From a virus: a DNA stretch of 34,889 nt. The stretch spans positions 1-34,889 of IMG/VR virus record IMGVR_UViG_3300019776_000257; one strand, 5' to 3'. The notes beneath the pieces are model-generated. The model made no database searches. It saw only the letters and a list, made by a program, of their open reading frames with translations, and was not told where the DNA came from. The translations under genes were made by a program, and so were the position numbers. Shown here one piece after another: positions 8,338 to 31,116 of this stretch (within the stretch, counting starts at the first letter, position 1; every line of letters starts with the position of its first letter).

Positions 8338-8342
8338 ATAAT

Positions 8343-8418: not shown

Positions 8419-8429
8419 AATTAGAAATG

Positions 8430-8625
8430 CTGACTCCGACGGGAGTTGGCCGAGTGCAAGGAAATGGCTGGACGCAAAGACCGGCTAACTTGGCTAGATG
8501 TTGTGGTGACCCAGTGTGACTAACGAGAGTTAGAGACGTTGCGCCTCACACCAAGAGGATCTAGGCTGTCGCGTTGAACAGGTATCTGTGCCGTGACTTG
8601 TGGGTGTACCCGAATCCCACCTCAC
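8430..8625 (+). ncRNA. Large structured non-coding region, possible ncRNA
   Basis: No reading frame. It holds hairpins ACTCC-GACG-GGAGT (8433-8446), GCTGG/CCGGC with loop ACGCAAAGA (8467-8485), CTAAC-GAGA-GTTAG (8520-8533) inside GTGTGA/TCACAC, a long-range CTAGAT/ATCTAG (8494-8499 with 8559-8564) and a T-arm-like GTGGG/CCCAC with an enlarged loop (8600-8620). The D-arm-like TTGGCCGAGTGCAAGG suggests descent from a Ser-type tRNA. Confidence 0.4.
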
Positions 8626-8643
8626 CTTATTAATTTTTAGCGA

Positions 8644-8650
8644 ATAAATA
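8644..8650 (+). promoter_or_regulatory. Late-promoter-like ATAAATA
   Basis: ATAAATA lies 36 bases before the small membrane gene and is followed by a CGGTC/GACCG hairpin. It matches the late box repeated at other gene starts here. Confidence 0.5.
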
Positions 8651-8685
8651 GTACACGGTCAATCAAGACCGAATGAGGTACTAAT

Positions 8686-8859
8686 ATGCTAAACACACTA
8701 GTCGTTTTAGTTTTAGTTGCAGCCGTTCTTTGGGTCGTTTGGACTCTATGGAAGAATGGTTGGGATATGAAGAAGGCAGGCGCTGCTCTTGTAGCTGCTG
8801 TAGCTGCTTGGTGGTTGTGGGTCTCTGACTCAATCACTTCATTGACTTCAGGTTTGTAA
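8686..8859 (+). CDS. Small two-segment membrane protein
   Basis: A 57-residue protein. Residues 3-22 form a hydrophobic segment rich in Val, Leu and Trp; a short Lys-containing turn follows, then a second Ala/Trp-rich segment at about 31-46. GAGG lies 7 bases before ATG. No family recognised. Small hairpin membrane proteins of this size in phages include holin-like and superinfection-exclusion proteins, but the lysis genes seem to be at 28 kb. A late-promoter-like box stands upstream. Confidence 0.75.
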   Translation: MLNTLVVLVLVAAVLWVVWTLWKNGWDMKKAGAALVAAVAAWWLWVSDSITSLTSGL

Positions 8860-8875
8860 TTCAGAAACCGCCGTT

Positions 8876-8963
8876 GGCCCGTGGCGGTATATAAGTCGGC
8901 TCACCGTAAGGGGGCTGGGTAAAATAGTTCGGATTCCAAGCCGTACTCGCTAACGGGCCGCCA
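8876..8963 (+). tRNA. Non-canonical tRNA-like element with perfect acceptor and CCA
   Basis: GGCCCGT pairs perfectly with ACGGGCC (8953-8959), then G and CCA. At 88 bases it is as long as a class II tRNA, but no T-arm can form next to the acceptor. Internal stems are CGG/CCG and GGCTGG/CCaAGCC. The anticodon cannot be read. Confidence 0.5.
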
Positions 8964-8970
8964 GATTTAT

Positions 8971-9045
8971 AGCCGATTAGTTCACTGGCAGAACACCTCG
9001 TTTACACCGAGGGTGTAGGGAGTTCGATTCTCTCATCGGCTACCA
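8971..9045 (+). tRNA. tRNA-Val (anticodon UAC)
   Basis: Acceptor AGCCGAT/ATCGGCT, discriminator A, CCA encoded. Anticodon arm CCTCG-TTTACAC-CGAGG. Confidence 0.95.
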
Positions 9046-9062
9046 TTTTTAGAAAGAGTAAT

Positions 9063-9236
9063 ATGGAAAGTCATAAAAGGTCAATCGTCAAGTCTATTAC
9101 TTGGCGTATCATTGCAACACTGATTGCTGCTTACTGGGTTGGCTTTCACATTGCTATTCTAATGAATATAGTCCAAACCATTGCATATTACTTCCACGAA
9201 AGATTGTGGGTGCATGTGAAATGGGGAAAAGAATAA
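9063..9236 (+). CDS. DUF2061-like small membrane protein
   Basis: A 57-residue protein with the features of the DUF2061 family: a basic N-terminus (MESHKRSIVKSITWR), a hydrophobic stretch with TxxAAYWVG, a second one, and the ending YYFHERLWVHVKWG. The family is a predicted inner-membrane protein of unknown function found in bacteria, so this copy probably came from a host. AAAGAG lies ahead of ATG 9063. It ends two bases before tRNA-Leu. Confidence 0.85.
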   Translation: MESHKRSIVKSITWRIIATLIAAYWVGFHIAILMNIVQTIAYYFHERLWVHVKWGKE

Positions 9237-9238
9237 AA

Positions 9239-9320
9239 GCGAGTATGGTGAAATGGCAGACACGCTAGTCTTAGGAACTAGTGCTTCGGCGTGGGGGTTC
9301 AAGTCCCTCTACTCGCACCA
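9239..9320 (+). tRNA. tRNA-Leu (anticodon UAG)
   Basis: Starts GCGAGTA, ends TACTCGC-A-CCA. Anticodon arm CTAGT-CTTAGGA-ACTAG. It has a normal long variable arm (TGCTTCGGCG). Confidence 0.95.
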
Positions 9321-9325
9321 TTAAT

Positions 9326-9399
9326 GCCTCTATAGTATAGTGGTAGAACAGCCCTTTGGTAGGGGGCTGGCTCCAGTTCGATTCTGGATAGAGGCACCA
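9326..9399 (+). tRNA. tRNA-Thr (anticodon GGU)
   Basis: Acceptor GCCTCTA/TAGAGGC, discriminator A, CCA encoded. Anticodon arm GCCCT-TTGGTAG-GGGGC. Confidence 0.92.
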
Positions 9400-9405
9400 G
9401 ATAAC

Positions 9406-9479
9406 GCCCGCTTAGTTAAGTGGCATAACATCGGTTTTGTAATCCGAGGTTGGGGGTTCGATTCCCTCAGCGGGCACCA
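9406..9479 (+). tRNA. tRNA-Thr (anticodon UGU)
   Basis: Acceptor GCCCGCT/AGCGGGC, discriminator A, CCA encoded. Anticodon loop TTTGTAA. Last tRNA of the array. Confidence 0.94.
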
Positions 9480-13426: not shown

Positions 13427-13768
13427 ATGAAATTACTAATAACTTTGCTTACTGGACTATTTCTTTTTGTTAGTCCAGCACACTCAACCATTGCCTCTTG
13501 GTACGATTGTGCCAAGCCAGGAGAATGCAGCAGAAGTAAGAGAACTGCAAATGGTGAGAAGTTTAATCCGAACGCTTTAACAGCAGCACATAAGACACTG
13601 CCGTTCGGCACAAAAGTAAAAGTGACACACAAGGGTAGATCGGTAATAGTTCGTATTAATGACCGAGGCCCATTCATTAAAGGCAGACATATTGATTTAT
13701 CAAGAGCCGCGGCCCGAAAGATTGGTTGTCATGGCGTTTGCAAAGTCACAATGAAAGTGATTCGCTAA
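13427..13768 (+). CDS. RlpA-like secreted double-psi beta-barrel protein (second copy)
   Basis: At 113 residues this is a close paralogue of the protein at 5753: a signal peptide (about 1-20, ending PAHS) followed by [26 protein letters not shown] and INDRGPF, with His55 and Asp79 as the expected catalytic pair. The barrel is almost the same in sequence but the DNA differs in codon choice and the signal peptide is distinct, so duplication is not recent. The ATG lies 8 bases after the methyltransferase stop. It may act on peptidoglycan in the periplasm; why two copies are kept is unknown. Confidence 0.88.
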
Positions 13769-13795: not shown

Positions 13796-14239
13796 ATGGA
13801 AGAATTACATAACGCATTAAAAGTTGTTCTCGCAGACACATTTACAATGTACTTTAAGACACATTCATATCACTGGAACGTTATCGGACCTAACTTTTCT
13901 CAGTACCATGAGTTCTTTGGCGAACTATACGGAGAGCTTCATGGAGCAGTAGACACAATTGCAGAACAGATTCGTGCTGTTAATTCTTTCGCACCCAGTT
14001 CTTTGGACAGACTAAAAGAACTAACAAGAATCCAAGAATCTGATACTATTCCTACATCAGATAGAATGTTTCAGATTCTAATGAATGATAATAACATCGT
14101 TTTGGATTCACTTAAATCGGCATACGAGCTTGCAGATAAGAATGAAGAACTTGGTCTAGCAAACTTTCTACAAGATCGTATGGACATTCACAAGAAGCAC
14201 GGTTGGATGTTAAAAGCCACAGCAGGAATGAAGTCTTAA
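13796..14239 (+). CDS. Dps-like ferritin-fold protein
   Basis: This 147-residue, all-helical protein has the Dps signature: FKTHSYHWNVIGPNF near residues 20-34, with the first ferroxidase histidine, then H..FF.ELY.ELH, then VDTIAEQIRAVN with Asp and Glu ligands. Dps proteins form 12-subunit shells that oxidise and store iron and protect DNA from peroxide; several phages carry them. It lacks the long lysine-rich tail that binds DNA in some Dps proteins. TAGGAG precedes the ATG and a late-type box lies 25 bases before it. It converges with the glycosyltransferase gene on the other strand, and the two stops overlap by 4 bases. Confidence 0.88.
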   Translation: MEELHNALKVVLADTFTMYFKTHSYHWNVIGPNFSQYHEFFGELYGELHGAVDTIAEQIRAVNSFAPSSLDRLKELTRIQESDTIPTSDRMFQILMNDNNIVLDSLKSAYELADKNEELGLANFLQDRMDIHKKHGWMLKATAGMKS

Positions 14240-15767: not shown

Positions 15768-16988
15768 ATGGCATCTTCTGGACAAGCGGCTTGGATAAAG
15801 TATTTCAAAGGCCAAGGCAACATAGAAACAATTATAAAGAAAAGTTCACCTGTTTACGACATGAATAAACCCAATCAGAAGATTGGAGATGTGTCGGCAG
15901 GTACAAAAGTTTTATATCTATCGTCCAAAAACTATGAAGCTAAGGCAGCCATAGAATACACAGTTAACAGAAAAAAAATATCAGGCAGAGTGCCCTTTGA
16001 TAATCTAGCAAAACCAGGCGTCAAAGCGTCTGGTGCGGCATCATTTAAACCTCAAGCTTTTGGAATAGGTGAACAGAAATACTCGTTTTCTGCCTACAAG
16101 AGAGCTATCATGGAATCAATAGAATCAAGAAAAGATTTGAATGCAGAATCCAGAGCATACTTGTCTGCTTTGTTTGACTTTCATTCTGGCGGTTCAACAT
16201 CAAAACAAAAAGTGATGAAGATATTTCAGCAGGTCAAAGGATCAGTTTCTCTAAATGATGTGAACAAAGACTTCGGCGAAGTATTAGGTCCAGTGGCCAT
16301 ATTAGAACAAGGTCTGTTTAGAGCAAACAAGATATCTTTAAACAAGGGATCATCACGAATATATATTCCACTAAGACCTAACGAACCTCTAATGGACTAT
16401 GCCATAATAAACGGAGACGTTCAGTATACCATATCAGCTAAAAGCGGCACGACAACTAACGTTGTGAAGCCTCCTGATATCATAGCTCTATTATCAAAAA
16501 GCCCAAAGAAACTAAAAAAGTGGTCTAAGAGTAAAGAGTTTCGCATTCTTCAAACACTGGCACAAGAATCTATATTGACAGGTCCAGTTAAAGCGGTATC
16601 AGAAGTCTATCCACAATTGATATCTGCGGCAGCGGCAACAAGCTTTTCAGGAAAAGGATATGATAAGAAACTTTTCTCTAAGTTTATCTCACAGAATGAA
16701 TACTTGAAAAACAAAAAAGATCCTACACCTAATGAGATAATGTATGAGTGTGAAAAGATTTTACAACAAAGAACAAAAGACCAGACTTTTGATATGACGG
16801 AAATATTTGCTGATGCGATAGAGAACCAAGTTTTCTATGTGAAGTTTGAATTGGATTCTTCTGGAATTGGAAAATGGGATGTTATTGTTAGTGATGATAT
16901 CAGAAAAACAAAAAGCGGAAGCGTTGTTTATCTAAGGTCAAAAAATGGATATACAAGAGCTTCTGACAGAATGGGTATACAGGTATAA
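15768..16988 (+). CDS. Phage protein of unknown function, possible nuclease-like core
   Basis: This 406-residue protein is not one I can name. Residues 20-80 look like an SH3-type beta domain. The middle has VNKDFGEVLGPVAILEQ, then EPLMDYAIINGDVQYTISAKSG; an Asp followed by S-x-K on the next strand is the spacing of a PD-(D/E)XK nuclease core, though the acid before the lysine is a serine-alanine here, so this is weak. The rest is helical and basic. The next gene starts within its stop (TAATG). Its place ahead of proteins with capsid-targeting peptides suggests a virion or head-assembly link. Confidence 0.6.
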   Translation: MASSGQAAWIKYFKGQGNIETIIKKSSPVYDMNKPNQKIGDVSAGTKVLYLSSKNYEAKAAIEYTVNRKKISGRVPFDNLAKPGVKASGAASFKPQAFGIGEQKYSFSAYKRAIMESIESRKDLNAESRAYLSALFDFHSGGSTSKQKVMKIFQQVKGSVSLNDVNKDFGEVLGPVAILEQGLFRANKISLNKGSSRIYIPLRPNEPLMDYAIINGDVQYTISAKSGTTTNVVKPPDIIALLSKSPKKLKKWSKSKEFRILQTLAQESILTGPVKAVSEVYPQLISAAAATSFSGKGYDKKLFSKFISQNEYLKNKKDPTPNEIMYECEKILQQRTKDQTFDMTEIFADAIENQVFYVKFELDSSGIGKWDVIVSDDIRKTKSGSVVYLRSKNGYTRASDRMGIQV

Positions 16989-18223
16989 TGCTAAACTATC
17001 AAGAGTATCTAACAGAATCAAAAGAAGGTAAGAACCTTCATCTAGAACACTTAGAGGACGAAGTATTAAATGGAGGAGTTGTTGGCACAAGAGGTGCAAT
17101 ATCCTTTTTACAGTCTCTTCGCGATATGCTTGCTGGTCATGCTACTGGTAGAACTGTTAATCTAACAACAAAATGGGATGGCGCACCCGCTATCTTTGCT
17201 GGTATTAATCCAGAAAACGGTAAGTTCTTTGTTGGTACTAAAGGCGTGTTTGCTAAGAATGCAAAGCTTAACTATACCAATGAAGATATTGATACCAATC
17301 ATCAAGGAGAAGGTCTAAACAAGAAACTCAAGATTGCTTTACAGTATCTACCAGAACTTGGAATTACTGGTGTGCTGCAAGGCGATATGATGTTTGCTGC
17401 TTCTGACTTAAAGAACGAAACGATTGAAGGTCAGAAATATATTACATTTCAGCCAAACACAATCGTATATGCTGTTCCTGCTGATTCGAATTTGGCCAAT
17501 ACAATAAAGTCTGCTAAGATGGGTATTGTCTGGCATACTACATATTCTGGCGATACAATGACTGACATGAAAGCATCATTTGGTGCTGATATTGGTTCAT
17601 TGAAAAAATCAAGAAATGTTTGGTATCGTGACGCATCATTCGTTGACGCATCTGGTACTGCTACATTTACAAAGCAAGAGACAGATGCACTAACGTCTAT
17701 TCTATCGCAGGCAGGATCTCTATTCAGAACCATATCTGCCAGAACACTAAACGAGATTGCAGTAAACGATTCATACAAGATTACCATCAAAGCATGGAAC
17801 AATCTAAAAGTACGTGAAGGAAAAGAAATCACGAACACATCTCAGCACGTTGCTGGTCTTATTGCCACTGTGGAAGAAAAGCTAAACAAGTCAATATTGG
17901 AAGCAAAGAAAGCAGACACCAAAAAGAAGCGTGAAATGGAAAAGAAGATTGTAATGGACTTCTACAAGTCAAATAAAAATGAGCTAAAAAAGATTTTTGA
18001 CTTGCAAAACTTGTTGGTTCGTGCTAAGAATATGATAGTCAAGAAACTACAGCAGGTACAAGACAGCGTTGGAACATATCTAAGGACAGATTCCACTGGA
18101 CTGAAAGTGACAGCCCCAGAAGGATTTGTTGCGATTGACCATATTGGAAATGCAGTTAAATTGGTAGACAGATTGGAATTCTCACAAGCAAACTTCAACG
18201 CCGTAAAGAATTGGAGCAAATAA
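16988..18223 (+). CDS. Ligase/nucleotidyltransferase-like protein with capsid-targeting N-terminus (DUF6267-like)
   Basis: A 411-residue protein. The start MLNYQEYLTE is very close to the T4 internal-protein capsid-targeting peptide, with Leu8 and Glu10 at the cleavage positions. Residues 60-68 (TTKWDGAPA) contain K62-x-D-G65, the lysine motif of DNA and RNA ligases and capping enzymes. GTKGVFAKNAK (83-93) and LQGDMMF (130-136) lie where motifs Ia and III are expected, and ITIKAWNNLK could be motif V. I recall the family label DUF6267. Covalent nucleotidyl transfer is inferred from motifs only. Predicted role: a packaged protein delivered with phage DNA, perhaps for nucleic acid repair. Confidence 0.7.
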   Translation: MLNYQEYLTESKEGKNLHLEHLEDEVLNGGVVGTRGAISFLQSLRDMLAGHATGRTVNLTTKWDGAPAIFAGINPENGKFFVGTKGVFAKNAKLNYTNEDIDTNHQGEGLNKKLKIALQYLPELGITGVLQGDMMFAASDLKNETIEGQKYITFQPNTIVYAVPADSNLANTIKSAKMGIVWHTTYSGDTMTDMKASFGADIGSLKKSRNVWYRDASFVDASGTATFTKQETDALTSILSQAGSLFRTISARTLNEIAVNDSYKITIKAWNNLKVREGKEITNTSQHVAGLIATVEEKLNKSILEAKKADTKKKREMEKKIVMDFYKSNKNELKKIFDLQNLLVRAKNMIVKKLQQVQDSVGTYLRTDSTGLKVTAPEGFVAIDHIGNAVKLVDRLEFSQANFNAVKNWSK

Positions 18224-18723
18224 TGAAAACTTTTAAACAAATGCTTTATGAGATGAAAAAGCCTAGATGGGAAGTTCCTGCTGAACCAGGCTCTACTCCT
18301 ACACCAGAGGGCAAGATAAAGCTGTATCATCAAACAAGTGATAAGAATTTAACAAACATCCGTAAGCAGGGCATCAAACTATCCCATGCTAAAGGATATG
18401 AAGGACCAAAAGCTATCTATGCATCACCACCCGATAGTAAGAACAGGGGTTTTTATGGCGCTGCCCATGATACTCCAACAGCAGAGTTTCATGTAGATAA
18501 AGATGAATATAAAGCGCCGTTCGTTCACAGAGACGAAGTACCAGCAAAAGATATTGTAGCTCACAAGCGTTGGCATTCAACTGTTCGTTATATTGATGCT
18601 GATCCTGAACTACGCAAAGCAGTAGAAGCCGGTGAGCATGATGACTTGATGAAGCAAGGTAAGAAAGATAATTTTGCCAAAGCCGTTCGTTTTGTGAAAA
18701 AGAGAGCCAAAGCAAAGAAATGA
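18223..18723 (+). CDS. ADP-ribosyltransferase-like protein with capsid-targeting N-terminus
   Basis: A 166-residue protein. It starts MKTFKQMLYE, again with (L)8-x-E10 and the MKT opening of T4 internal proteins. The core KLYHQTSDKNLTNIRKQGIKLS, then AIYASP and later TAEFHV, follows the His, Tyr/Ser, Glu order of small ADP-ribosyltransferase folds; VPAKDIVAH is also typical of such domains. The exact catalytic glutamate (Glu88 or Glu105) is unclear. T4 packages the ADP-ribosyltransferase Alt and injects it, so this could be a functional counterpart. ATG 18223 is coupled to the preceding stop by TAATG with GGAG upstream; the C-terminus is Lys-rich. Confidence 0.68.
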   Translation: MKTFKQMLYEMKKPRWEVPAEPGSTPTPEGKIKLYHQTSDKNLTNIRKQGIKLSHAKGYEGPKAIYASPPDSKNRGFYGAAHDTPTAEFHVDKDEYKAPFVHRDEVPAKDIVAHKRWHSTVRYIDADPELRKAVEAGEHDDLMKQGKKDNFAKAVRFVKKRAKAKK

Positions 18724-19409
18724 AGCTTAACACATACTTAAAGAAACATAAGAACGAGGTTCGCACATTGAATGTGTGGGACATTGACGACACTTTAGGT
18801 AAAACTTCTGCCAAAGTATCAGTAATCAAAGACGGTAAAGTTGTTAAAGTTTTAGAGCCAGGCGAGTATAACACGTATAAGCCAAAAGAAGGCGAAAGCT
18901 TTGACTTTGCTCAGTTTCGTTCAGGTAAGGTCTTTCGCGACACATTCAAGCCTATCAACAATGTTCTAGATAAGGCCAAAGACATTGTTATGAATCAATC
19001 TGAAAACTCACACTCAATCATTCTAACGGCTCGTTCAGACTTTGATGACCATAAAGAGTTTTTACAGACGTTTCGTGACCATGGATTTCCTATTGACCAT
19101 GTGTATGTTGAACGTTCGGGCAATCTCTCAAAGCTGAATCCAAGCTCACCAGCACACATCAATAAGGGTGTTATCCTCAAGAAATACCTAGCAACAGGTA
19201 AGTGGGATCGTGTTCGTATGTGGGATGACCATGAAAAAAATCTAGATATGCTGTACAAGGTTGCGGCTCAATTTCCAAAAGTTGAAGCTGTGGGATATCT
19301 AGTGAAAGATGGCAGAGTTACAAAATACACACCAAAGAAAGTAATTGCAAAAGAGATTACCGAAGCTGCCAAAACAGCCTTATTGAAAAGGAAGTATCAA
19401 GTTGACTGA
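18720..19409 (+). CDS. HAD-superfamily phosphatase-like protein
   Basis: A 229-residue protein with the HAD motifs in order: DIDDTL (Asp21 and Asp23, nucleophile and acid), IILTARSD (motif II), a lysine in the middle region, and RMWDDHEKN (motif IV acids). Relatives in T4-type phages are described as HAD domains linked to RNA repair, similar to the phosphatase part of polynucleotide kinase; the substrate here is inferred. It overlaps the ART-like gene by 4 bases (ATGA). With the ligase-like gene two positions upstream, a nucleic acid end-repair set is possible. Confidence 0.8.
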   Translation: MKLNTYLKKHKNEVRTLNVWDIDDTLGKTSAKVSVIKDGKVVKVLEPGEYNTYKPKEGESFDFAQFRSGKVFRDTFKPINNVLDKAKDIVMNQSENSHSIILTARSDFDDHKEFLQTFRDHGFPIDHVYVERSGNLSKLNPSSPAHINKGVILKKYLATGKWDRVRMWDDHEKNLDMLYKVAAQFPKVEAVGYLVKDGRVTKYTPKKVIAKEITEAAKTALLKRKYQVD

Positions 19410-19554
19410 TAACAATGCTCAATGGAATCGTGAAGTAGCAAACAAGATATGGCAAAAACTCAAAGGTAAGTCTATACCAGAGAGCTATACCGACAAAGAA
19501 TGCGAAGAGATTCTGAAAAGATACTGGCACAAAGCCATGGAGTCGGAACAGTAG
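19402..19554 (+). CDS. Small conserved-type protein, TTG start
   Basis: A 50-residue acidic protein (starting with TDNNAQWNREVANKIW) read from TTG 19402, overlapping the end of the HAD gene; AAGGAA lies about 10 bases upstream. The frame is helical and ends at a TAG just before a late-type promoter. I recognise no family. The TTG start makes it less certain, but the frame fills the gap and keeps phage-like codon use. Confidence 0.5.
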   Translation: MTDNNAQWNREVANKIWQKLKGKSIPESYTDKECEEILKRYWHKAMESEQ

Positions 19555-19558
19555 AATA

Positions 19559-19565
19559 CTAAATA
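19559..19565 (+). promoter_or_regulatory. Late-promoter-like CTAAATA before the 1135-residue gene
   Basis: CTAAATA lies 34 bases before ATG 19599; GAGGGA follows as ribosome site. Confidence 0.55.
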
Positions 19566-19598
19566 CCTCTATAAGTTAACATTCCTATAGAGGGAATA

Positions 19599-22500
19599 AT
19601 GGTAAAAAAGACGCCTGGAGTGGCGTTTTATGGTAAAGTTCGTATACCGACTATTGGTCATGCCGAAGCCATAAACACAGCCAAGAGTATAGCAAAAAAG
19701 CGTGGTGCAAGACTTACAATCGGTCTTTCTCATACAAACGCACCTTTAAATTCTTCCCAAAAAAGAGTTCATGCTGAAAAAGTGTTTAATCATCCTGTAA
19801 TGACGGGTGATGAACACACTAAAAATCTGTTTTCATTTCTATCCCATCTCAACAAAAGTCACGACGAACTTCATCTGGTTGCTGGCTCAGATAGAGCCGA
19901 GCAGTATCGTTCTACCTTACAACAGTATAATGGTAGAGCCGATAAGAGCGGCAAAGTACCTTTTCATTTTAAGAGTTGGAAAGTACATGAAGTTGAGGGT
20001 GAAAGAGGAGATAGTGGTAAAGATCCAACAAAAATGTCCAGAGACGAACTGGTCAGATCGGTTAGCGCATCTAAGCTAGAGAAATTGGCCTCAGAAGGCA
20101 ACTATGAACACTTTAAAGCATATCATCCTGGTATGCCAGAGTCTCATGTTAAAAAAGTATATGGTCAGATTCGCAAAGGTCTTTCATTAAACGAAGAAGT
20201 TACACGCAAAGAACTAGCACCTATGCTAGATTCGTTTGTATCATTTGCATCTGATAAGCTTGGATTGAAGTCAATGCCAACTGTCAGATATAAGACAGAT
20301 GATGATGATTACAATTCATTTGCCGCATACAATCCCTCATCTAACGAACTTTCAGTCTCTACAATCAACAGACATCCAATGGACATTTTCCGTTCTGTGG
20401 CACATGAACTTGTGCATCACAAGCAGAACGAAGATGGTCGTATTGGTAAAGATATAGCGAAAGAGGGTGAGACTGGCTCAGACATAGAGAACGAAGCAAA
20501 CGCAGAAGCAGGTAAGATTATGCGCTGGTTTGCAAAATCAAATCCTGATATGTTTGCAAAAAGCTTTGTTGTCGAGACAAACACAGCAGCAATGGCGCCC
20601 GTTAGTGGTATTCGTGGTCTAGGCAATGTAACTGGCGAAGTATCGCCTACAGGAACATCTCAGTATGTCATTGCAAATCAGACATACACTCAGAATGCAC
20701 AGGGCGGTAATAACACAGATGGACTTTGGTATGATGACGGCATAGACAGTTATTGGCTGGATAAAAAAGGTTCTGGTGAATATCAAAAGAAAGCTGTCAA
20801 AGGTTTCAAGGCTGTTCGTGGACAACTGAACGAAGGCATCAACGATCCTGGCAGACTCAAAGCGGTCTTCTTGGCTGGTGGTCCAGGTTCTGGTAAAGAC
20901 TTTGTTATGAACAAAGCACTTGCTGGTAATGGCCTAAGAGAGATTAATTCTGATACAGCATTTGAATATCTGATGAAGAAGAACGGTCTTGACTTAGAAA
21001 TGCCAGATGAAGAAAGAGTTGAGCGTGAGGTTGTTCGCGGTCGTGCCAAGAACATTACTTCAACGAAAGAAATCAACTCACTTTCTGGTCGTTTAGGTCT
21101 GATAGTAAATGGTACAGCAGACGATTTAGAAAAAATCAAGACTGTGAAATCAGAACTAGAAGACCTTGGCTACGATACAATGATGGTGTTTGTTAACACA
21201 TCAAATGAAGTATCGCGTCAGCGTAATGTTGAAAGAGGCAAGTCTGGCAATCGTAAAGTTCCAGATGGTACCGACAAGCAAGGTAATCCAGATGGATCGC
21301 CAAACATTCGTCAAGAGAAGTGGGATCTTGCACAGAAGAATATCGGTGAGCTTGAAAAGATTTTCGGTAAAGATAGCTTCACTGTTATCGACAATACAGC
21401 AGATATTCGTAAAGTTGCGCCAGATGTAAAAGACCGAATCGAAGCAGATTTCAATCGTGTTCGTCGCATGACTATGCAGTTTGTGCAATCTCCTGTGAAG
21501 AACAAGAGAGGTCAAGCATGGACTCAAAGACGCGCAAGATATCAGGGTACCACACAGTATACACCACCAACTGCATACACAAAAGTACCCACACCTACTC
21601 GTATTGAAACACCCAAGGCTATCATAAAACCATCAAGCGAAGTAATGGATCAAGCCAGAAGACTTGGCTTATCTTATTACGGTTTCGGTCGTTTTGGTCG
21701 TAAAGTTGGTGGCAAGAATAAAGTAATGTATCATAGCAAGGGCAATCAGCTTGTTAAAGTACAAATCAACGAAGACCTGAGACAGTGGTTTAGCAAAGAT
21801 CATCCAAAGGGTAATTGGAAAAGAGTAGATACAAAAGGCAATATAAAAGGCGATTGTGCAAGAGAGCCTGGCGAGGGTAAACCAAAGTGTATGCCAGCAT
21901 CCAGAGCATATTCAATGTCGAAAGAAGATAGAGCAAAGTCAGCTAGAAGAAAAAGAAGAGAGGATCCCGTGGCAAATAGACCAGGAAAAGGCAATAAGCC
22001 TATTAATGTAAAAACAGAATCGGTACAAAAAGCAATAGACAAGATTAAGGCCGATAGAATATCAGAACAAGTTTTGATAGAAAAGAATGTTCCGACAAAT
22101 CCAGAGTTATGGAGCAAGGCCAAGTCGTTAGCAAAAAGCAAGTTTGATGTTTATCCTTCTGCATACGCTAATGGTTGGGCATCAAAGTGGTATAAGTCAA
22201 AAGGTGGTGGTTGGAAAACTGCTACAAACGAAGCATGTTGGGATGGCTATGAGCAGAAAGGTATGAAGAAGAAGGGCGGTCGCAGTGTTCCTAATTGTGT
22301 ACCAGCAAACGAAGCCTTTGAACAATTCATGCAGTCTATGGGCAATAAGCCATCAACAGAAAAGAAAAAGCCAAAGAAGAAGGCTCTAAATCAAGAGGCT
22401 CTCACTGCACCAGAACCATGGGGCTATAACTTCGGTGGTGATGGCATTGGTCCAACATACGCTGTTCCGCGCGCGGGTACGCCATTTGGATTTGGATATG

Positions 22501-23006
22501 GTTCTGCATACTCTGCTGGCATATCTGAAAGTATTCAGACATGGATGAACTCAGAAAAAACACAGCAAAAGTTTGCTAATAAGTATGGCGACTTATGGGA
22601 AGAAAAGCTAACCGAAGCAGCACTTAGACTTGAAGAAGCTGGATGTGGTTGTGACCACAGCGAAAAGAAGTCTATAAAGAAGTTGAGAGAGGGTATGGAA
22701 GGCGGTGTTAACAACATGAGCATGATTCCAACTCAACGCAAAAGCGAAGAACAGTTAAACGAAAAAGGTGCAGACTCAAAAGGTTTGTATCGCTCAACAG
22801 AAAGTGGTGCTGGTTTAACAAGAAAAGGCGCAAAGCACTTTGGCGTGAAAACAGCAGTTACCACACCACCGTCAAAACTAAAAAGGGGTGGTAAAGCATG
22901 GAAACGCCGTAAGTCATTCTGTGCAAGAATGGGCGGTGTTGTTCGCAGATCAAAAAATGCAGAACGCGCAAGAGCTTCTATGCGCCGTTGGAACTGCGAA
23001 GAATAG
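19599..23006 (+). CDS. Multidomain protein: nucleotidyltransferase, metallopeptidase, P-loop kinase and basic modules
   Basis: This 1135-residue protein appears to be a chain of separate domains. Residues 1-190 form a nucleotidyltransferase-like fold with the HIGH-type TIGH (18-21). Residues 205-400 form a metallopeptidase-like region with HELVH (269-273) and downstream acids (ENEANAEAG). Residues 418-625 form a zeta-toxin-like P-loop kinase with GGPGSGKD (427-434). From 725 on come Lys/Arg-rich modules, one with GNWKRVD and another with KSKFDVYPSAYANGWASKWY, and a basic tail (WKRRKSFCARMGG). Sites of the T4 prohead protease type, (L/I)-x-E, fall at the borders: LNE at 197-199, 410-412 and 1053-1055, INE at 723-725, ISE at 821-823, LTE at 1004-1006. 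It is probably a virion polyprotein. The ATG has GAGGGA upstream. Confidence 0.75.
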   Translation: MVKKTPGVAFYGKVRIPTIGHAEAINTAKSIAKKRGARLTIGLSHTNAPLNSSQKRVHAEKVFNHPVMTGDEHTKNLFSFLSHLNKSHDELHLVAGSDRAEQYRSTLQQYNGRADKSGKVPFHFKSWKVHEVEGERGDSGKDPTKMSRDELVRSVSASKLEKLASEGNYEHFKAYHPGMPESHVKKVYGQIRKGLSLNEEVTRKELAPMLDSFVSFASDKLGLKSMPTVRYKTDDDDYNSFAAYNPSSNELSVSTINRHPMDIFRSVAHELVHHKQNEDGRIGKDIAKEGETGSDIENEANAEAGKIMRWFAKSNPDMFAKSFVVETNTAAMAPVSGIRGLGNVTGEVSPTGTSQYVIANQTYTQNAQGGNNTDGLWYDDGIDSYWLDKKGSGEYQKKAVKGFKAVRGQLNEGINDPGRLKAVFLAGGPGSGKDFVMNKALAGNGLREINSDTAFEYLMKKNGLDLEMPDEERVEREVVRGRAKNITSTKEINSLSGRLGLIVNGTADDLEKIKTVKSELEDLGYDTMMVFVNTSNEVSRQRNVERGKSGNRKVPDGTDKQGNPDGSPNIRQEKWDLAQKNIGELEKIFGKDSFTVIDNTADIRKVAPDVKDRIEADFNRVRRMTMQFVQSPVKNKRGQAWTQRRARYQGTTQYTPPTAYTKVPTPTRIETPKAIIKPSSEVMDQARRLGLSYYGFGRFGRKVGGKNKVMYHSKGNQLVKVQINEDLRQWFSKDHPKGNWKRVDTKGNIKGDCAREPGEGKPKCMPASRAYSMSKEDRAKSARRKRREDPVANRPGKGNKPINVKTESVQKAIDKIKADRISEQVLIEKNVPTNPELWSKAKSLAKSKFDVYPSAYANGWASKWYKSKGGGWKTATNEACWDGYEQKGMKKKGGRSVPNCVPANEAFEQFMQSMGNKPSTEKKKPKKKALNQEALTAPEPWGYNFGGDGIGPTYAVPRAGTPFGFGYGSAYSAGISESIQTWMNSEKTQQKFANKYGDLWEEKLTEAALRLEEAGCGCDHSEKKSIKKLREGMEGGVNNMSMIPTQRKSEEQLNEKGADSKGLYRSTESGAGLTRKGAKHFGVKTAVTTPPSKLKRGGKAWKRRKSFCARMGGVVRRSKNAERARASMRRWNCEE

Positions 23007-23013
23007 TAATTCA

Positions 23014-23020
23014 ATAAATA
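23014..23020 (+). promoter_or_regulatory. Late-promoter-like ATAAATA
   Basis: Lies 30 bases before ATG 23050, after the stop of the 1135-residue gene; a GAGGA ribosome site follows. Confidence 0.55.
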
Positions 23021-23049
23021 TAAGTAAATATCCATAGAGGAAAACTACA

Positions 23050-25050
23050 ATGCTTAACAAAAACGATCCATTAATTGGCGCAGTTCAAGAAGTGATGAAG
23101 AGAAATCATGCTGAACGTGAAGCCGTAAAACTAGTGAACGAAAAGTTTGGTGTGACAGACCGCAAGGCTCTTCCACACGAACGTCAGGGCGAGTGGGATG
23201 CTGCATATAAGTCTGTATTAACAGAAGGTCTTCATCCAAATCAGCAGAAGCTTGATGTGCATGAGCCTGATAAAGATGAACTAACATCTGATGATTTCAG
23301 AAAGCTTCGTGCTAAGAAGAAGCCAATGGAAGAAGATGTAACATCTCCTTCTTCAATGGGTATTCCAAAGCCTAACTATGCATCTGGAACACCAGCTTAT
23401 GCTAACAAGGGACCACAGATGGTCAATCGCACTGGAAAAGGCAATGCCGAAACTGGTATGGGTAGATCAGAAAATATTGCACATCAAGGCAATTCAGTTG
23501 TGACCAAAACAAGTAAAAAGTCTTCTTCGGTAATGCCAAGCACAATGAAAGAAGCTAAGGTTAATCCTTATGCTGTAGGCATGGCCGCAGTTGAGAAGTC
23601 CACTGGTGATGAACCACCAATGGAAAAGAAGAACATCATGAAGGCACATAAGATTGCAAAGAAGATTATTGCTAGAAAGAAGATGAACGAGGGTTTTAAT
23701 GACCGCCACGATTTGAGCGAAAATGCTTCTGCTAAAAAGCAGGTCGTGGCGGATCAGCTTAATGAAGATGACATTGATTCTTATGAAAATAGAATGACTG
23801 CCGGCCTTGGAATCGGTGGTTATAGTCCATATGGTGGTGGTCGTTTTGGAGGCGGTTCAGCTAAAACAAGTGGTTCTGGTGCAATGACAGGAAGAGTAAA
23901 AGCTTCTAATATTAATACTAGAACAGGCGAACCTTTGCCAGCAAAACGTTCAGTTCCAAAAGTAAATATTAAAGATGCGCCAGGACTTTCCGCGGCAGCT
24001 AAATCTCGCTTTAAAAAGAGACTCGATGCAATACAAAGTGCGGCTCCAAAAAGTCCAAAAAATTCATTAAAATCATCGAAAAAACCTTCGACAACTCCAG
24101 CACAACCTGTTCCTGGAGATAAAAATTATGAATCTCCTATTCGAAGTTTCGTTAGAAAGCAGAATGAAAAAAATGCTAAAATTAAAGCAAATGCTAGACC
24201 AGCTAAAGACATTAAAGCAGATGATGCTCGTTCTGAATTTTTGTCAAGAGCAAAGGGTGTGACACAGGCGTCTAGACCGGCATCTGATGTTAAAGCTGGT
24301 GATGCTCGTTCTGAATTTTTGTCAAGAGCAAAGGGTGCGACACCACCAAGACCGGCATCTGATGTTAAAGCTGGTGATGCTCGTTCTGAATTTTTGTCAA
24401 GAGCAAAATCTAGTGCTGCTAAACCGCCAGCATCTTCAGCTTTAGCAAAAACTCAACAAGCAAAAAGAATCTCTGCAATACGTAGAACAAGTGTTGGTGC
24501 TGGATTAGCCCTCGGTACTGTCGCATCTGGTGGTGATCCGCTTGGGTTAGATAATACAGTAACTTCCAGTGCATCAACTCCTAAGAAGAAGGAAATTACT
24601 GATAGAGTTCCTCCATCTGATGCTAAGGAACAAGGCGCAAAGGTCGGTACTTCTGGTTTACAAAAGCCATCAGGAACAACAGCGCAGCCATATGGCATGA
24701 ATATACCTAAGAAGCTTGATCCAGATTCTCGTATTGCTAAAGGTACTGCTCCTCAAGCACAAGCACCTGCTTTGCAGAAGAAGGCTGCTCCTCAAGCACA
24801 AGCACCTGCTTTGCAGAAGAAGGCTACCAAACCAGCAGCACAAGCACCTGCTGTTCAAAAGAAAGCTGCTCCTCAAGCAAATCAACCCTCTGCATCAGAG
24901 CGCAGAGAAAACAGAAGATTGCTTGATAGAGGAATGGTTGTTGGACCAGAAGCCAAGAGGGCACAGCAAAGGTCTGGTACTGGTGTAACAACAGGAACAA
25001 CAGTAGTGCAAAAACCAATGAAAATTAACAAAAATTTACCAGGTAAATAA
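23050..25050 (+). CDS. Basic, repetitive virion-type protein
   Basis: A 666-residue protein of low complexity, rich in Lys, Ala, Ser, Pro and Gln. The first 60 residues may be folded (ending VLTEG); the rest looks disordered. Three tandem 20-residue repeats containing DARSEFLSRAK are encoded at 24196-24408, and about four 13-residue repeats of the form APQAQAPALQKKA near 24740-24880. Sites of protease type occur at LTE 57-59, LSE 222-224 and LNE 237-239. A basic, cleavable, repeat-rich protein next to the other packaged candidates suggests a head-interior or DNA-associated role. I recognise no enzyme domain. GAGGA precedes the ATG. Confidence 0.7.
   Translation: MLNKNDPLIGAVQEVMKRNHAEREAVKLVNEKFGVTDRKALPHERQGEWDAAYKSVLTEGLHPNQQKLDVHEPDKDELTSDDFRKLRAKKKPMEEDVTSPSSMGIPKPNYASGTPAYANKGPQMVNRTGKGNAETGMGRSENIAHQGNSVVTKTSKKSSSVMPSTMKEAKVNPYAVGMAAVEKSTGDEPPMEKKNIMKAHKIAKKIIARKKMNEGFNDRHDLSENASAKKQVVADQLNEDDIDSYENRMTAGLGIGGYSPYGGGRFGGGSAKTSGSGAMTGRVKASNINTRTGEPLPAKRSVPKVNIKDAPGLSAAAKSRFKKRLDAIQSAAPKSPKNSLKSSKKPSTTPAQPVPGDKNYESPIRSFVRKQNEKNAKIKANARPAKDIKADDARSEFLSRAKGVTQASRPASDVKAGDARSEFLSRAKGATPPRPASDVKAGDARSEFLSRAKSSAAKPPASSALAKTQQAKRISAIRRTSVGAGLALGTVASGGDPLGLDNTVTSSASTPKKKEITDRVPPSDAKEQGAKVGTSGLQKPSGTTAQPYGMNIPKKLDPDSRIAKGTAPQAQAPALQKKAAPQAQAPALQKKATKPAAQAPAVQKKAAPQANQPSASERRENRRLLDRGMVVGPEAKRAQQRSGTGVTTGTTVVQKPMKINKNLPGK
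24196..24408 (+). repeat. Three 60-bp tandem coding repeats with short spacers
   Basis: Units at 24196-24255, 24274-24333 and 24349-24408 share GATGCTCGTTCTGAATTTTT and flanks. Units 2 and 3 are nearly identical, unit 1 has diverged. They encode a 20-residue repeat in the 666-residue protein. Confidence 0.9.
24740..24880 (+). repeat. 39-bp coding repeats
   Basis: About four copies of a unit starting GCTCCTCAAGCACAAGCACC, the first two identical, the third and fourth changed. They encode an Ala/Gln/Lys-rich repeat. Confidence 0.85.
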
Positions 25051-25051
25051 A

Positions 25052-25450
25052 ATGAACAACAAAAAGCTAGCGGAGATGATAAAACGTCTCCGCGAAGAAA
25101 AGTTAAAACAGATTGGTTCAGGCGGTTCTTATAGAGGTAGCGGAGCAGACATACAAGATCCTGCTAGTCCAAATCGAGAACCAGGTTCAGCAACAAAAGA
25201 AATTCATCATGGCATAGTAAAAGAAGAAGAACTGAATGAGTTTCAATCAAGAGCAAGACCAACACACAGTTATATTGGATTAAAAATCCAATCTAGAAGA
25301 CAACCATTCCGTAATGCTGTAAGTCGTCCTTTAGGATCAAATCAAAAGGGTAGATATAGACTTGAAGAGAAAGAGAAGTCTTCCAATACTAAATCAACAT
25401 TCATAAATACTACACCAGAAAACGATTCGGCTATGGTAGGAACACAATAA
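25052..25450 (+). CDS. Small basic protein, probable virion component
   Basis: A 132-residue protein with a helical N-terminus (NKKLAEMIKRLREEKLKQ), then a Gly/Ser-rich polar stretch and a basic C-terminal half. A protease-type site ELNEF (LNE at 61-63) divides the two parts. It begins two bases after the stop of the 666-residue gene and probably shares its mRNA. No family recognised. Confidence 0.65.
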   Translation: MNNKKLAEMIKRLREEKLKQIGSGGSYRGSGADIQDPASPNREPGSATKEIHHGIVKEEELNEFQSRARPTHSYIGLKIQSRRQPFRNAVSRPLGSNQKGRYRLEEKEKSSNTKSTFINTTPENDSAMVGTQ

Positions 25451-25461
25451 GGAGAAAGTAA

Positions 25462-26052
25462 ATGTCACTTTGGACTAATCTAGATGGCGTAACAGGCAAC
25501 GGTAAGCCTTTATATGCCAACACAACATATAGAGTTTCAAACTCTACAATAAACGGAAGCAAAGCAAACACTGCCAAGTATTATGGCGCTGTTTATGGCC
25601 TTTCTGCAACAGAAGCAGCTAACACACTCGTAGATGGTGGTAAAACAGCACATGCTGGTTGGGTATCACAGAAGATTGGCACAGGCCCAATCAAGACAAT
25701 CACAATCGTCAATGGCGGACAGGGTTACAACTCTGCTGGCTTCTTGACAATCTCGGGTGGTGGCGACGGCACAGTTAATGTTGCTTACACAATTGCAAAC
25801 TCACAAAACAGTTTGCAGTCATATTCAAGTAATGCTAGACTAAATGCAATTGCTACACTTACAATCGTAAGTCCTGGCGCAGGGTTTAACGTTGCTCCTA
25901 CTGTAATTGCTGGCGGTGCTAACATTGCACCAGCAGTATTCTCAGTTACCATGGGCGGCCGCGCAGGTCGTGTACAGTATGAGACTCTAGTTGCTATGGG
26001 TTCTATTACTGGTGATGATCCAGGCGACGATAAGTATTTCCCAGGAACTTAA
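25462..26052 (+). CDS. Glycine-rich structural protein, likely head decoration or similar
   Basis: A 196-residue protein that lacks charge clusters and is rich in Gly, Ala, Thr and Asn. Paired segments such as TITIVNGGQGYNSAGFLTIS and TIVSPGAGFNVAPTVI form an internal duplication with a GxGY/F turn, typical of beta-rich phage surface proteins. A very strong ribosome site (AAGGAGAAAG) and even codon use suggest high expression. Similar proteins are abundant virion components in marine T4-type phages (recalled, not checked). No signal peptide. Confidence 0.7.
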   Translation: MSLWTNLDGVTGNGKPLYANTTYRVSNSTINGSKANTAKYYGAVYGLSATEAANTLVDGGKTAHAGWVSQKIGTGPIKTITIVNGGQGYNSAGFLTISGGGDGTVNVAYTIANSQNSLQSYSSNARLNAIATLTIVSPGAGFNVAPTVIAGGANIAPAVFSVTMGGRAGRVQYETLVAMGSITGDDPGDDKYFPGT

Positions 26053-26074
26053 TAGAGAAAAATGGCGGTAACAA

Positions 26075-27235
26075 ATGAAGAGATTTACAGAATATCTAAA
26101 CGAAGATTTTGATCCAGCAGTTTTCAATGCTGATGGTGGTATTTCTATTGACGATCCAACAGTAATTGATGCTATCAATTCTAACCTTGAGATGGCAACA
26201 AGTTGCAGTTATAGAACACCATACAACGGCCTTGAAGAAGTTACAAAGACGCTGGCATACTACAAAATCTTTCTCCCAAAGGGCGTCTTTCTAGATCAAA
26301 ATCACGGTAACGATGTTTTTGAAGTCTCTCAGTTTGGCGAAAAGACAGGAATGAATAATCAAGGAGAAGTCGTAACCGCCAACGACTTTCCACTATTCAT
26401 CTATTATGAATGGTCACTAAACGAAAAAGGCATGTATGATACTTTTGCATGTCTATGTAATCAGGATGAGTTAGACGAAATTCTAGCTGATTTTGAAGCA
26501 GAAGTAGGAGATGATGAAACTGATTTGCAAGAACAGCACTCTATGGGCAAAATCTCAAAGATGCTTTATAAGGCTGTAAATCAGGTCAAGGCTCAAAAGC
26601 AAAGTGATGATGTAGACTCATATATCGAACATGAGAAAGAAGGTAAAACTTTTACTCAGATTTGTGAAGAGCCAATGCCAAATTTAAACAAAAGAATGGC
26701 AGCAAAGCTTGGTTCAAAAGCAGTAACTTTGGCCAAGAGAATGACCAAGGAAGAAACCATCAACGAAATCTCAAAGAAGTTGGCACATAAGGCTTCTGAG
26801 AAGGCCTATGAAGCTGGTCTTAAACACTATGATGAGACTAGCAGAAAAAGACGCAAGGCTTTAAAGTCAAAAGACAAGAAAGACATGGATGCAGCCACAG
26901 CCGAACAAGGCAAGATGAGCAAGAAGTGGAAGCAGTCTATGAGATTCAAGGCTTATGCCGATAAGAAGATGGAAGAAGACTATGATTTCAGATCCAAGCA
27001 AGATGCTGAAGATAGTGCGGCTATTGCTAAGAGAGCAAGAAAGCCTAGTGAAAAAGCTTTCTGGAAAAAAGCATATAAAAAGAACAACAAAAAGGCTGTA
27101 ACTGGCATGGATGAAGAGAAAGAGCCATTCGATCCGCCTTTCAAGAACGTTCAAAGAACCGAAAAGAAAGATGCTGCAAGAGCTTCACAATTAGCTAAAA
27201 AGGCAGAAAAGAAAGCTAAAGCAAAAAAGAAATAA
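26075..27235 (+). CDS. Probable internal head protein with capsid-targeting N-terminus
   Basis: A 386-residue protein starting MKRFTEYLNE, with Leu8-x-Glu10 as in T4 internal proteins. Residues 11-140 look globular and acidic (AYYKIFLPKGVFL, LFIYYEWSLNEK). From about residue 200 the chain is strongly basic, with many Lys, ending KKAEKKAKAKKK, as expected of a DNA-binding packaged protein. Further protease-type sites are LNE 115-117 and INE 229-231; the second separates the acidic and basic halves. No enzyme domain recognised. The stop overlaps the next start (TAATG). Confidence 0.68.
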   Translation: MKRFTEYLNEDFDPAVFNADGGISIDDPTVIDAINSNLEMATSCSYRTPYNGLEEVTKTLAYYKIFLPKGVFLDQNHGNDVFEVSQFGEKTGMNNQGEVVTANDFPLFIYYEWSLNEKGMYDTFACLCNQDELDEILADFEAEVGDDETDLQEQHSMGKISKMLYKAVNQVKAQKQSDDVDSYIEHEKEGKTFTQICEEPMPNLNKRMAAKLGSKAVTLAKRMTKEETINEISKKLAHKASEKAYEAGLKHYDETSRKRRKALKSKDKKDMDAATAEQGKMSKKWKQSMRFKAYADKKMEEDYDFRSKQDAEDSAAIAKRARKPSEKAFWKKAYKKNNKKAVTGMDEEKEPFDPPFKNVQRTEKKDAARASQLAKKAEKKAKAKKK

Positions 27236-27621
27236 TGATTGATAATTTAAATGATGAGAACTTCATGATATATGCCATGAAGTGTTATGACTCTCCAAAC
27301 TGCATAATGAGTGAATTTGAGGAAGACTTAAAGCGTATTAAGTACGTAAAGAGACTTATCAAAAGGTATAAAACGACTGGTGAACTAAAAGAGAGGCTGA
27401 TACTTAATCACATTATCATCCTCTCTAATGTTTTTGGAACTCGTAATGCAGTGAGAATGTTGTTCTTTAAACTAGACGAACAAGACTACCAGATACTTAA
27501 AACGTTTCTGATTTTTCTTGGATACATGCCAGATAGTGTAACAGGAATAAACGGTAAGAACATTAACTCACACAGTATCTCAATTGACTTGTTTGTAGGT
27601 AAACGTCTTAGAGATATTTAA
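27235..27621 (+). CDS. Conserved T4-type phage protein (DUF7207-like)
   Basis: This 128-residue all-helical protein matches, from memory, a family conserved in T4-type phages of marine bacteria: NDENFMIYAMKCYDSP, then LKRIKYVKRLIKRYKTTGEL, then LILNHIIILSNVFG and the ending LKTFLIFLGYMP. The function is unknown, though its steady place near late structural genes suggests a link to head or tail assembly. It is coupled to the preceding gene by TAATG. After its stop is a nested hairpin (27623-27657). Confidence 0.75.
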   Translation: MIDNLNDENFMIYAMKCYDSPNCIMSEFEEDLKRIKYVKRLIKRYKTTGELKERLILNHIIILSNVFGTRNAVRMLFFKLDEQDYQILKTFLIFLGYMPDSVTGINGKNINSHSISIDLFVGKRLRDI

Positions 27622-27622
27622 A

Positions 27623-27657
27623 GGTATTCATATCATCACTGGCATAGCCAGAATACC
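27623..27657 (+). other. Nested hairpin followed by a direct repeat
   Basis: GGTATTC pairs with GAATACC, enclosing TGGC-ATA-GCCA. There is no T-run, so it is not a standard terminator. At once after it TTGTCAAGA occurs twice (27661-27669, 27672-27680). Confidence 0.5.
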
Positions 27658-27685
27658 ATGTTGTCAAGAGGTTGTCAAGACTAAA

Positions 27686-28168
27686 ATGAATAGAGTAAGA
27701 AAATACATTAAAGAGAGTTTAGCTGGTGCAGGTGCTTCTATGGATGGCATGTCTGCTCCTTTTTCTGCTATGGGCCAAGAGATTGATTCTAGAAGAAAGC
27801 AAAAACCTATACCACTAGGCAAGACAATGGGATCATATGTTGATGAAGAAAACACAGCAGGTTCAGGAGCAGTTGCCGCACTTGGTGTTGGACCACAAGG
27901 TGAACCAGGTCGTTCGGCAGAGTTGATGCCGATGGTTCGTCGTGGAAAAAAGTTTATGGGTGTTGAACCATATATTGTTCCATCAAGAGTGTTCAACCAA
28001 ATCAGAGAAGCAAAGAGAAAAGGCAAGCACTGGCGCAAGTTTTTAGACGAAGATGATACATTCCATCACATTCGCATGGAAGCTAAGAAGAACAAAAAAG
28101 GTGCTATTATAATAGAAGATGAAAACACTGGCGCATTGATATTTGCCAGATACGGAAAGGAAGTATAA
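27686..28168 (+). CDS. Small protein with capsid-targeting-like N-terminus
   Basis: A 160-residue protein that begins MNRVRKYIKE, with Ile8-x-Glu10 matching the internal-protein pattern. A Gly/Ala/Met-rich stretch follows, then a collagen-like GVGPQGEPG, and a basic C-terminal half (REAKRKGKHWRKFLDE; EAKKNKKGAII). No family recognised. It is predicted to be packaged. The next gene starts in its stop (TAATG). Confidence 0.6.
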   Translation: MNRVRKYIKESLAGAGASMDGMSAPFSAMGQEIDSRRKQKPIPLGKTMGSYVDEENTAGSGAVAALGVGPQGEPGRSAELMPMVRRGKKFMGVEPYIVPSRVFNQIREAKRKGKHWRKFLDEDDTFHHIRMEAKKNKKGAIIIEDENTGALIFARYGKEV

Positions 28169-30090: not shown

Positions 30091-31116
30091 ATGTCTTTAT
30101 ACATTGACAAGAAGTTCGTTTCCTTAGTATCTCCCAAACTGGAACGTTTCAAACAAAAGTCTGAGTACCTGTGGAATTTTAGGTGCCCAATCTGTGGAGA
30201 TTCCCATAAGAACAAGTTGAAGACGCGCGGCTATTTCTATCGCCGCAAGTCTGACCTATTCTTTCAGTGCCATAACTGCGGTACTTCGCTGTCTATTGGA
30301 AACTTTCTCAAGACGATTGACCGTTCACTGTATCGTGAGTATCAGCTTGAACGATACAAGGACGAGAGTGCAGGCAATACTGCGAAGCCTGATTTCTCAT
30401 GGGCAAAGACAAAACCCGTCTTTGCATCGAAAACTGACACACAAGAGTCGAAAATCAATCTACCTACAATCGACTTGTTGAAGGAAGATCATGCCGCAAA
30501 GCAGTATCTATTGAAGCGCAAGATTCCGCGCGAACACTTGAAGCATATCTATTATGCCGAGAACTTCAAGGCTTTCGTGCTTGAAATGCTTCCTGATTAT
30601 GAGAAGACTTTATATGATGAACAGCGCATTGTGTTTCCATTCTACGGCCAGGACAAGAAGCTGCTCGGCTTTCAAGGTCGCGCTTTAACTGATTCCAAAG
30701 TCAAGTACATCACAATCAAAATGGATGATGACTTTACTAAAATCTATGGACTAGATAGAGTTGACTTCGCAAAGCGTATCTATGTGGTAGAGGGCCCGAT
30801 TGATAGCCTATTCTTGCAGAATTCACTTGCAACTATGGACGCTTCGCTGTATAATATTACTCTTTTACTTGGCAACTATGACTATGTGTTCATTCACGAC
30901 AATGAACCACGCAATGCTGCAATCACAAAGCAGATGGCGAAGACAATTAGTCACGGTAAAAATATTTTTATTTGGCCACAAAATATAGTAGCAAAAGACA
31001 TAAACGACTGGATCCTGACAGGAACGACTCCTTCTGAGGCTCAGAGTATTATAGATAGACATACGTTCAATGATTTGAGAGCAAAGTTGGAGTTTGAAAG
31101 ATGGCGAAAGGCGTGA
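30091..31116 (+). CDS. DNA primase, T4 gp61 type
   Basis: A 341-residue protein with an N-terminal zinc site Cys32-x2-Cys35 ... Cys60-x2-Cys63 (FRCPICGDSH and FQCHNCG) and a TOPRIM domain: IYVVEGPIDS with Glu234, then FIHDNEP with Asp270. This matches T4 gp61, which makes short RNA primers together with the replicative helicase. The length agrees with the family (T4 342). It is the first gene of a nucleotide-metabolism operon under a strong early-type promoter; the ribosome site can be hidden by a hairpin. Its end overlaps the next gene by 16 bases. Confidence 0.95.
   Translation: MSLYIDKKFVSLVSPKLERFKQKSEYLWNFRCPICGDSHKNKLKTRGYFYRRKSDLFFQCHNCGTSLSIGNFLKTIDRSLYREYQLERYKDESAGNTAKPDFSWAKTKPVFASKTDTQESKINLPTIDLLKEDHAAKQYLLKRKIPREHLKHIYYAENFKAFVLEMLPDYEKTLYDEQRIVFPFYGQDKKLLGFQGRALTDSKVKYITIKMDDDFTKIYGLDRVDFAKRIYVVEGPIDSLFLQNSLATMDASLYNITLLLGNYDYVFIHDNEPRNAAITKQMAKTISHGKNIFIWPQNIVAKDINDWILTGTTPSEAQSIIDRHTFNDLRAKLEFERWRKA

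Follow-up and report, generated by a model that had tools for sequence, protein, structure and literature searches.

Candidate T4-type capsid-targeting leaders on diverse proteins of a T4-like phage and its relatives

A shared N-terminal leader upstream of the primase gene

The DNA analyzed here is a 34,889-base virus record (IMGVR_UViG_3300019776_000257), in the following called the window, which represents a fragment of a T4-like aquatic phage; our subject is a ten-residue N-terminal leader on several of its proteins that resembles the capsid-targeting sequence of T4 internal proteins. The genes in question are located in a block from 15.8 to 28 kb, upstream of the genes for a gp61-type primase and a B12-dependent ribonucleotide reductase. 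Synteny extends to the Methylophilales phage Melnitz (Kyanoviridae) and to three viral contigs of larger size, namely, G001 (167 kb), G002 (137 kb) and G004 (98 kb). Four plus-strand genes encode a DUF6267 protein of 411 amino acids (aa) (16988..18223; leader MLNYQEYLTE, 16988-17017), a 166-aa protein (18223..18723; MKTFKQMLYE, 18223-18252), a 386-aa protein of unknown function (26075..27235; MKRFTEYLNE, 26075-26104) and a 160-aa protein with the leader-like start MNRVRKYIKE (27686..28168). A previous sequence-only reading had noticed Leu or Ile at position 8 and Glu at position 10 of all four proteins and proposed that they are targeted to the capsid. The N-termini are as it described: all four begin with ATG, and an independent gene caller picked the identical starts.

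The motif [LI]-x-E at residues 8-10 is found in five of the 37 window genes, compared with 0.40 expected (p=4.6e-5). The fifth match is the gene at 6390 (MIRKQLNIEE), which is devoid of the other leader residues, and positions 8 and 10 alone were dropped as a criterion because they are unspecific and also select this gene. According to the genetics of T4 IPIII, targeting depends mainly on residues 4 and 7, and processing on residues 8 and 10 (PMC9026906). The full pattern applied here, i.e. hydrophobic residues at positions 4 and 7 plus [LI]-x-E at 8-10, was taken from T4 and not fitted to the window. It occurs in four of the 37 genes, precisely those of the sequence-only reading, where 0.018 are expected (p=4e-9), and at none of 200 internal methionines. 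In the T4 control it marks 4 of 244 genes (IPII, IPIII, gp24 and gp61.1, identified by sequence, length and position; the annotation of gp61.1 was checked), and in the lambda control it matches no gene. The pattern is furthermore enriched in G001, G002, G004, S-CRM01 and C48C1, with a weaker enrichment in Melnitz.

Conservation of the leader in homologous proteins

Homologues were gathered by protein body and not by leader. A tblastn search of the proteins at 18223, 26075 and 27686 against isolated phages returned no match, and their homologues were therefore drawn from viral contigs. A Glu near position 10 is present in 55 of 59 distinct N-termini from the DUF6267, 26075, 18223 and Alt-like families. 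Among these 55, the residue six before the Glu is F or Y in 50, the residue three before is F or Y in 51, and the residue two before is L or I in 53. The P1' residue is mostly Ser or Ala, and the remaining leader positions are variable.

Alignment of the homologous N-termini, which had been proposed as a check of the sequence-only reading, separates the four proteins. The hydrophobic residues 4 and 7 and (L/I)xE at 8-10 are retained in the homologues of 16988, 18223 and 26075. In Melnitz, the DUF6267 protein can be read from MINFSKYITE, with Asp as the following residue. Leaders of the 18223 family read MKTFNQYITE, MKTLKEHLEE, MKTFKQYLYE and MISFKNFLRE; the ATG at 18223 is preferred over a TTG in the list of open reading frames (ORFs) 12 bases upstream (18211), as it agrees with the choice of the gene caller and with homologues whose N-termini are the first and third of these sequences. 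The leader of 26075 persists in homologues down to 38% identity (MKKFKDFLSE, MKTFRQKIAE), and the Melnitz counterpart by position and sequence starts with MKNFKNHIAE. The homologues of 27686 start with MKLVRKKIKE or MKYIKE, or the leader is absent; the KE is kept and the targeting residues are not, which is why this protein is not counted as a member and appears doubtful as a capsid-targeted protein. T4 gp61.1 (MKTFKEFIKEDMVAGDSGG), located directly upstream of the T4 primase gene, might be a distant counterpart of 27686, a relationship that we regard as a lead only.

The leader as a portable module

The comparison of related phages indicates that the leader is a portable module that is gained, lost or attached to other proteins. 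DUF6267 occurs without a leader in the cyanophages P-HM2, S-PM2, S-CRM01 and DSL-LC02, and in S-CRM01 and DSL-LC02 neighbouring genes carry the leaders MISFDQFLSE, MKKLDQFLTE, MKLFNQFFKE and MKRFLQFLSE. The 18223 protein is encoded behind the DUF6267 gene in the window and in two relatives (L127, L129), between the terminase genes in a third (L130), and as a fusion with an LSE site at the junction in two others (L131, L132). Leader-bearing genes of relatives are also found beside the portal gene; in G002, an Alt-like ADP-ribosyltransferase directly follows it (PF03496, E 2e-24; PHROG Alt, E 3e-12). The gp16-gp17 gap is a known hot spot in cyanophages (PMC3037559). One locus (L133 2553-5885) harbors, within 3.3 kb, three genes whose leaders are almost identical and whose bodies differ (MISFKNFLRE, MISFKNFLNE, MISFRNFLIE). 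In phage C48C1 (L142 7688-9031), the annotated start of a cytidyltransferase is probably too late, and the frame runs upstream as the leader VIKNFSQYLLEEEREVYFTFGR.

A blind scan of viral contigs with a degenerate DNA pattern for MKTFK[QE][FY]LxE recovered at least 120 stretches, of which 83 matches were examined. These precede 32 unrelated cargo families, and 80 of them lie at most 30 codons from an upstream in-frame stop, the others at most 42. The biggest cargo family among the examined proteins is an S-adenosylmethionine (SAM) lyase (PF23780, E 7e-19; 27/81), and phage lysozyme with LysM, lytic transglycosylase, GNAT and DUF6321 proteins were found as well. G001 contains one GNAT protein and one SAM lyase, both leader-bearing. 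A permuted pattern of equal degeneracy yielded no match. These counts bear on the explanation that the four N-termini agree by chance or shared ancestry. Short motifs do recur, and the non-candidate at 6390 fits positions 8 and 10, but the significance of the full pattern, the unrelated protein bodies and the contrast of zero permuted matches with at least 120 make this explanation hardly credible; for 16988, 18223 and 26075, and for these three only, it is already contradicted.

Prohead protease and virion proteins of relatives

The gp21 family of prohead proteases (PF03420) is present in G001, G002, G004, Melnitz, S-CRM01, C48C1, DLP_6 and S-CREM2, and all eight proteases in the alignment share unchanged His and Ser blocks (GEL-HP, GVS-RG). 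At the alignment column of the T4 gp23 cleavage site LTE65/A66, the major capsid proteins of G001, G002 and Melnitz read LNE or LSE, with Ala or Ser as the next residue. The conserved site and the invariant protease blocks suggest that the specificity of the prohead protease is probably conserved in this lineage.

For the cyanophage S-CREM2 a virion proteome of 52 proteins, determined by mass spectrometry, has been published (PMC10665884, Table 3). The leader pattern matches five annotated S-CREM2 proteins, and four of them belong to the virion proteome (hypergeometric p=0.012): the SAM hydrolase gp6 (MKDFDSFLEE), gp13 (MKDLHSFLTE), the kinase gp14 (MKRFDAFLTE) and the cytidylyltransferase gp154 (MKNFSSFLTE). 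The remaining match is an ORF of 55 aa. A looser pattern with E at 8-14 gave no significant enrichment (4/7 in virions, p=0.057). The DUF6267 homologue of S-CREM2, gp87, has no leader and is not among the virion proteins. The leader is not mentioned in the accessible text of the proteome paper. The virion protein gp12, annotated as Cas9 (L269 7704-10313), contains the leader-like sequence PLRFASFMAE about 15 residues in, behind an N-terminal extension.

The location of the window block among replication genes (helicase, primase), away from the head genes, would fit an N-terminal peptide that serves as a docking helix for another complex, for instance the replisome or tail, with a coincidental likeness to T4. 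This explanation is very unlikely: the residues shared with T4 leaders have a known function there, Glu and L/I are conserved as strongly as the aromatic residues, P1' is mostly Ser or Ala, and leader genes also occur in the gap that separates the terminase genes and next to the portal gene, with leader proteins reported in S-CREM2 virions.

Putative cargo proteins of the window

The sequence-only reading had called the protein at 16988 ligase-like and that at 18223 ADP-ribosyltransferase-like. The protein at 16988 matches the DUF6267 family PF19782 with an E-value of 2e-112, and its ligase-like label is supported by the motifs and, to a modest degree, by the fold. K62-W-D-G, E378-G-F-V and K391-L (VKL) are invariant or nearly so in 20 homologues and occur in the right order; we take them to be motifs I (KxDG), IV (EGxV) and V of the RNA/DNA ligase nucleotidyltransferase superfamily. 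A Foldseek search with the AlphaFold2 model of the DUF6267 protein gave no significant match. After realignment with VIA, nearly all top rows are RNA, tRNA or DNA ligases with Z-scores from 7.5 to 5 (7.5 for a Naegleria RNA ligase, 6.4 for T4 Rnl2); since values below 8 are modest, we designate the protein as RNA-ligase-like and not more. Residues 1-18 of the model have a pLDDT below 50, and nearly all ligase matches leave out the first 13 residues, as would be expected of a detachable tag with a predicted cut after Glu10. The label of 18223 stands on a weaker footing: chains of the ADP-ribosyltransferase superfamily (TreTu, Tpt1/KptA, DarT, PARP) lead its fold list, with Z-scores of about 4 or less, and the protein has no Pfam match.

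The gene at 19599..23006 (plus strand) encodes a 1135-aa multidomain protein with nucleotidyltransferase, Zeta-toxin-like kinase, DUF6321 and other domains but without an N-terminal leader. LxE sites after residues 199, 412, 725, 828 and 1055 (window bases 20195, 20834, 21773, 22082 and 22763) are located at apparent domain starts. The protein has 13 LxE sites in total, whose Glu is kept in three homologues at 12 of 13 positions, compared with 36 of 64 other Glu residues (p=0.012), which is only suggestive of a polyprotein. LxE density exceeds that of shuffled sequences in the window (p=0.015) and is not significant in the three homologues, so density alone is no proof; for the protein at 23050 it is not significant either. 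The sequence LNE/GINDPGRLKAVFLAGGPGSGK matches MKTFAELQE/GVYDPNIFKAIFLAGGPGSGK of Melnitz, and the segment after residue 199 is retained between the window and its relatives while the upstream nucleotidyltransferase differs. Some segments match S-CREM2 gp154, gp160 and gp137, all of which are virion proteins, and others match free-standing leader-bearing proteins. We tentatively consider a cargo polyprotein that may be cut by the prohead protease at conserved LxE sites into separate, jointly injected enzymes, a possibility that we rate well below even odds. If true, a single gene would deliver a multi-enzyme payload.

The block is bordered by the gp61-type DNA primase gene (30091..31116, plus strand), a homologue of S-CREM2 gp162, and includes a conserved neighbour (27235..27621, plus strand) homologous to S-CREM2 gp159, which is undetected in virions. 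A polynucleotide-kinase-like HAD protein (18720-19409; phrog_415) is present without a leader in the window, and a HAD-like protein of L151 carries the leader MKTFKEYLEE. By sequence impression, the window also encodes a pair of similar secreted RlpA-like proteins (5753-6121, 13427-13768) and a Dps/ferritin-like protein conserved in G001 and G002 (13796-14239); in L188, a lytic transglycosylase domain of the RlpA-like kind carries a capsid-targeting leader. Among small genes at positions 5-9479, 28 tRNA genes in 9.5 kb form an unusually big array for a phage fragment.

Interpretation and comparison with known systems

We conclude that the products of 16988, 18223 and 26075 bear a capsid-targeting sequence of the T4 type, by which they would enter the head, be trimmed and be released with the DNA, and we assign this reading a probability of about 85%. 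The proposal of the sequence-only reading thus holds for three of its four proteins and not for 27686. Head entry and trimming are likely for the three because of the conservation of the leader, the outcome of the blind scan with its modular cargo, the protease and capsid protein site of the relatives and the S-CREM2 virions; injection is a further inference. The leader would dock the protein on the scaffold core of the prohead via residues 4 and 7, which are aromatic or hydrophobic; a gp21-type protease would cut after Glu10 of (L/I)xE, thereby freeing the protein inside the head, where it would be enclosed with the DNA and ejected at the next infection. In relatives, the leader is found on SAM lyase, Alt-like ADP-ribosyltransferase, acetyltransferase, kinase and lysozyme as well as on many unknown domains, and the genes are frequently located at presumed cargo sites, for example the helicase-to-primase block or the gap between the terminase genes. 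These phages thus probably carry a swappable enzyme set into the host with their DNA, most likely for early protection or takeover functions.

Several observations weigh against this reading. A gp21-type protease, for which the sequence-only reading had proposed a search elsewhere in the genome, was found only in relatives; PF03420 has no match in the window's own record, which is a 35-kb fragment. The 27686 homologues fail the leader test, though the window copy fits the pattern. Virion presence has been published for leader proteins of S-CREM2 only, the window phage being known from its sequence; the S-CREM2 enrichment rests on five proteins, its authors could not exclude co-purification (PMC10665884), and N-terminal peptide data for the virion proteins were not seen in the accessible parts of the source. 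The leaders could also bring proteins into the head for a role in assembly or in packing of the DNA, as is possible for IPIII, without injection of working enzymes. T4 IPIII indeed influences head morphogenesis (PMC9026906). We nevertheless consider a purely structural role unlikely, as SAM lyase, Alt-like ADP-ribosyltransferase, lysozyme and acetyltransferase are sensible in the host and not in the head, and two T4 proteins with comparable leaders or processing, IPI and Alt, exert their function in the host.

The leader-bearing proteins have their closest parallel in T4 IPI, IPII and IPIII (MKTYQEFIAE), which share the ten-residue leader, residues 4 and 7, (L/I)xE at 8-10 and a gp21-type protease in the lineage; the cargo here is large, enzyme-like, from many families including a ligase-like protein, and is deduced from sequence. 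T4 Alt, a gp21-processed ADP-ribosyltransferase of the head, resembles the Alt-like protein that is encoded right after the portal gene in relatives, but the latter has a leader of the IP type (MKRFNEYLEE), and the window protein at 18223 is a different, weakly supported candidate. In phiKZ and SPN3US, a protease related to gp21 cuts many head proteins behind a Glu, and these proteins are thought to be ejected. Glu-trimmed head proteins and a related protease are thus in common, whereas the motif in phiKZ is S/A-x-E (PMC9026906) and the leader described here is a compact ten-residue sequence with (L/I)xE. The cyanophages S-CREM2 and S-CRM01 are similar in their leader-bearing kinase, SAM hydrolase and cytidylyltransferase, leader proteins being reported in virions (PMC10665884), and differ in that their DUF6267 lacks the leader. 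The open-access literature searched for cyanophage capsid-targeting leaders yielded work on T4, giant phages and P1 and reviews only, with subscription papers and preprints outside the scope of the search. The breadth of the cargo and the possible polyprotein may thus be new, although novelty is not proven.

T4-like phages are very common in marine and lake waters, and little is known of what they inject beside their DNA. The tag of ten residues, which was compared with T4 genetics and with a published virion proteome, allows candidates for injected proteins to be listed from sequence and offers a reason for the presence of a kinase, a SAM hydrolase and a cytidylyltransferase in cyanophage virions. 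It yields candidate anti-defence and takeover proteins, with SAM lyase as the commonest cargo among the examined scan matches, and indicates a natural route of delivery open to many folds.

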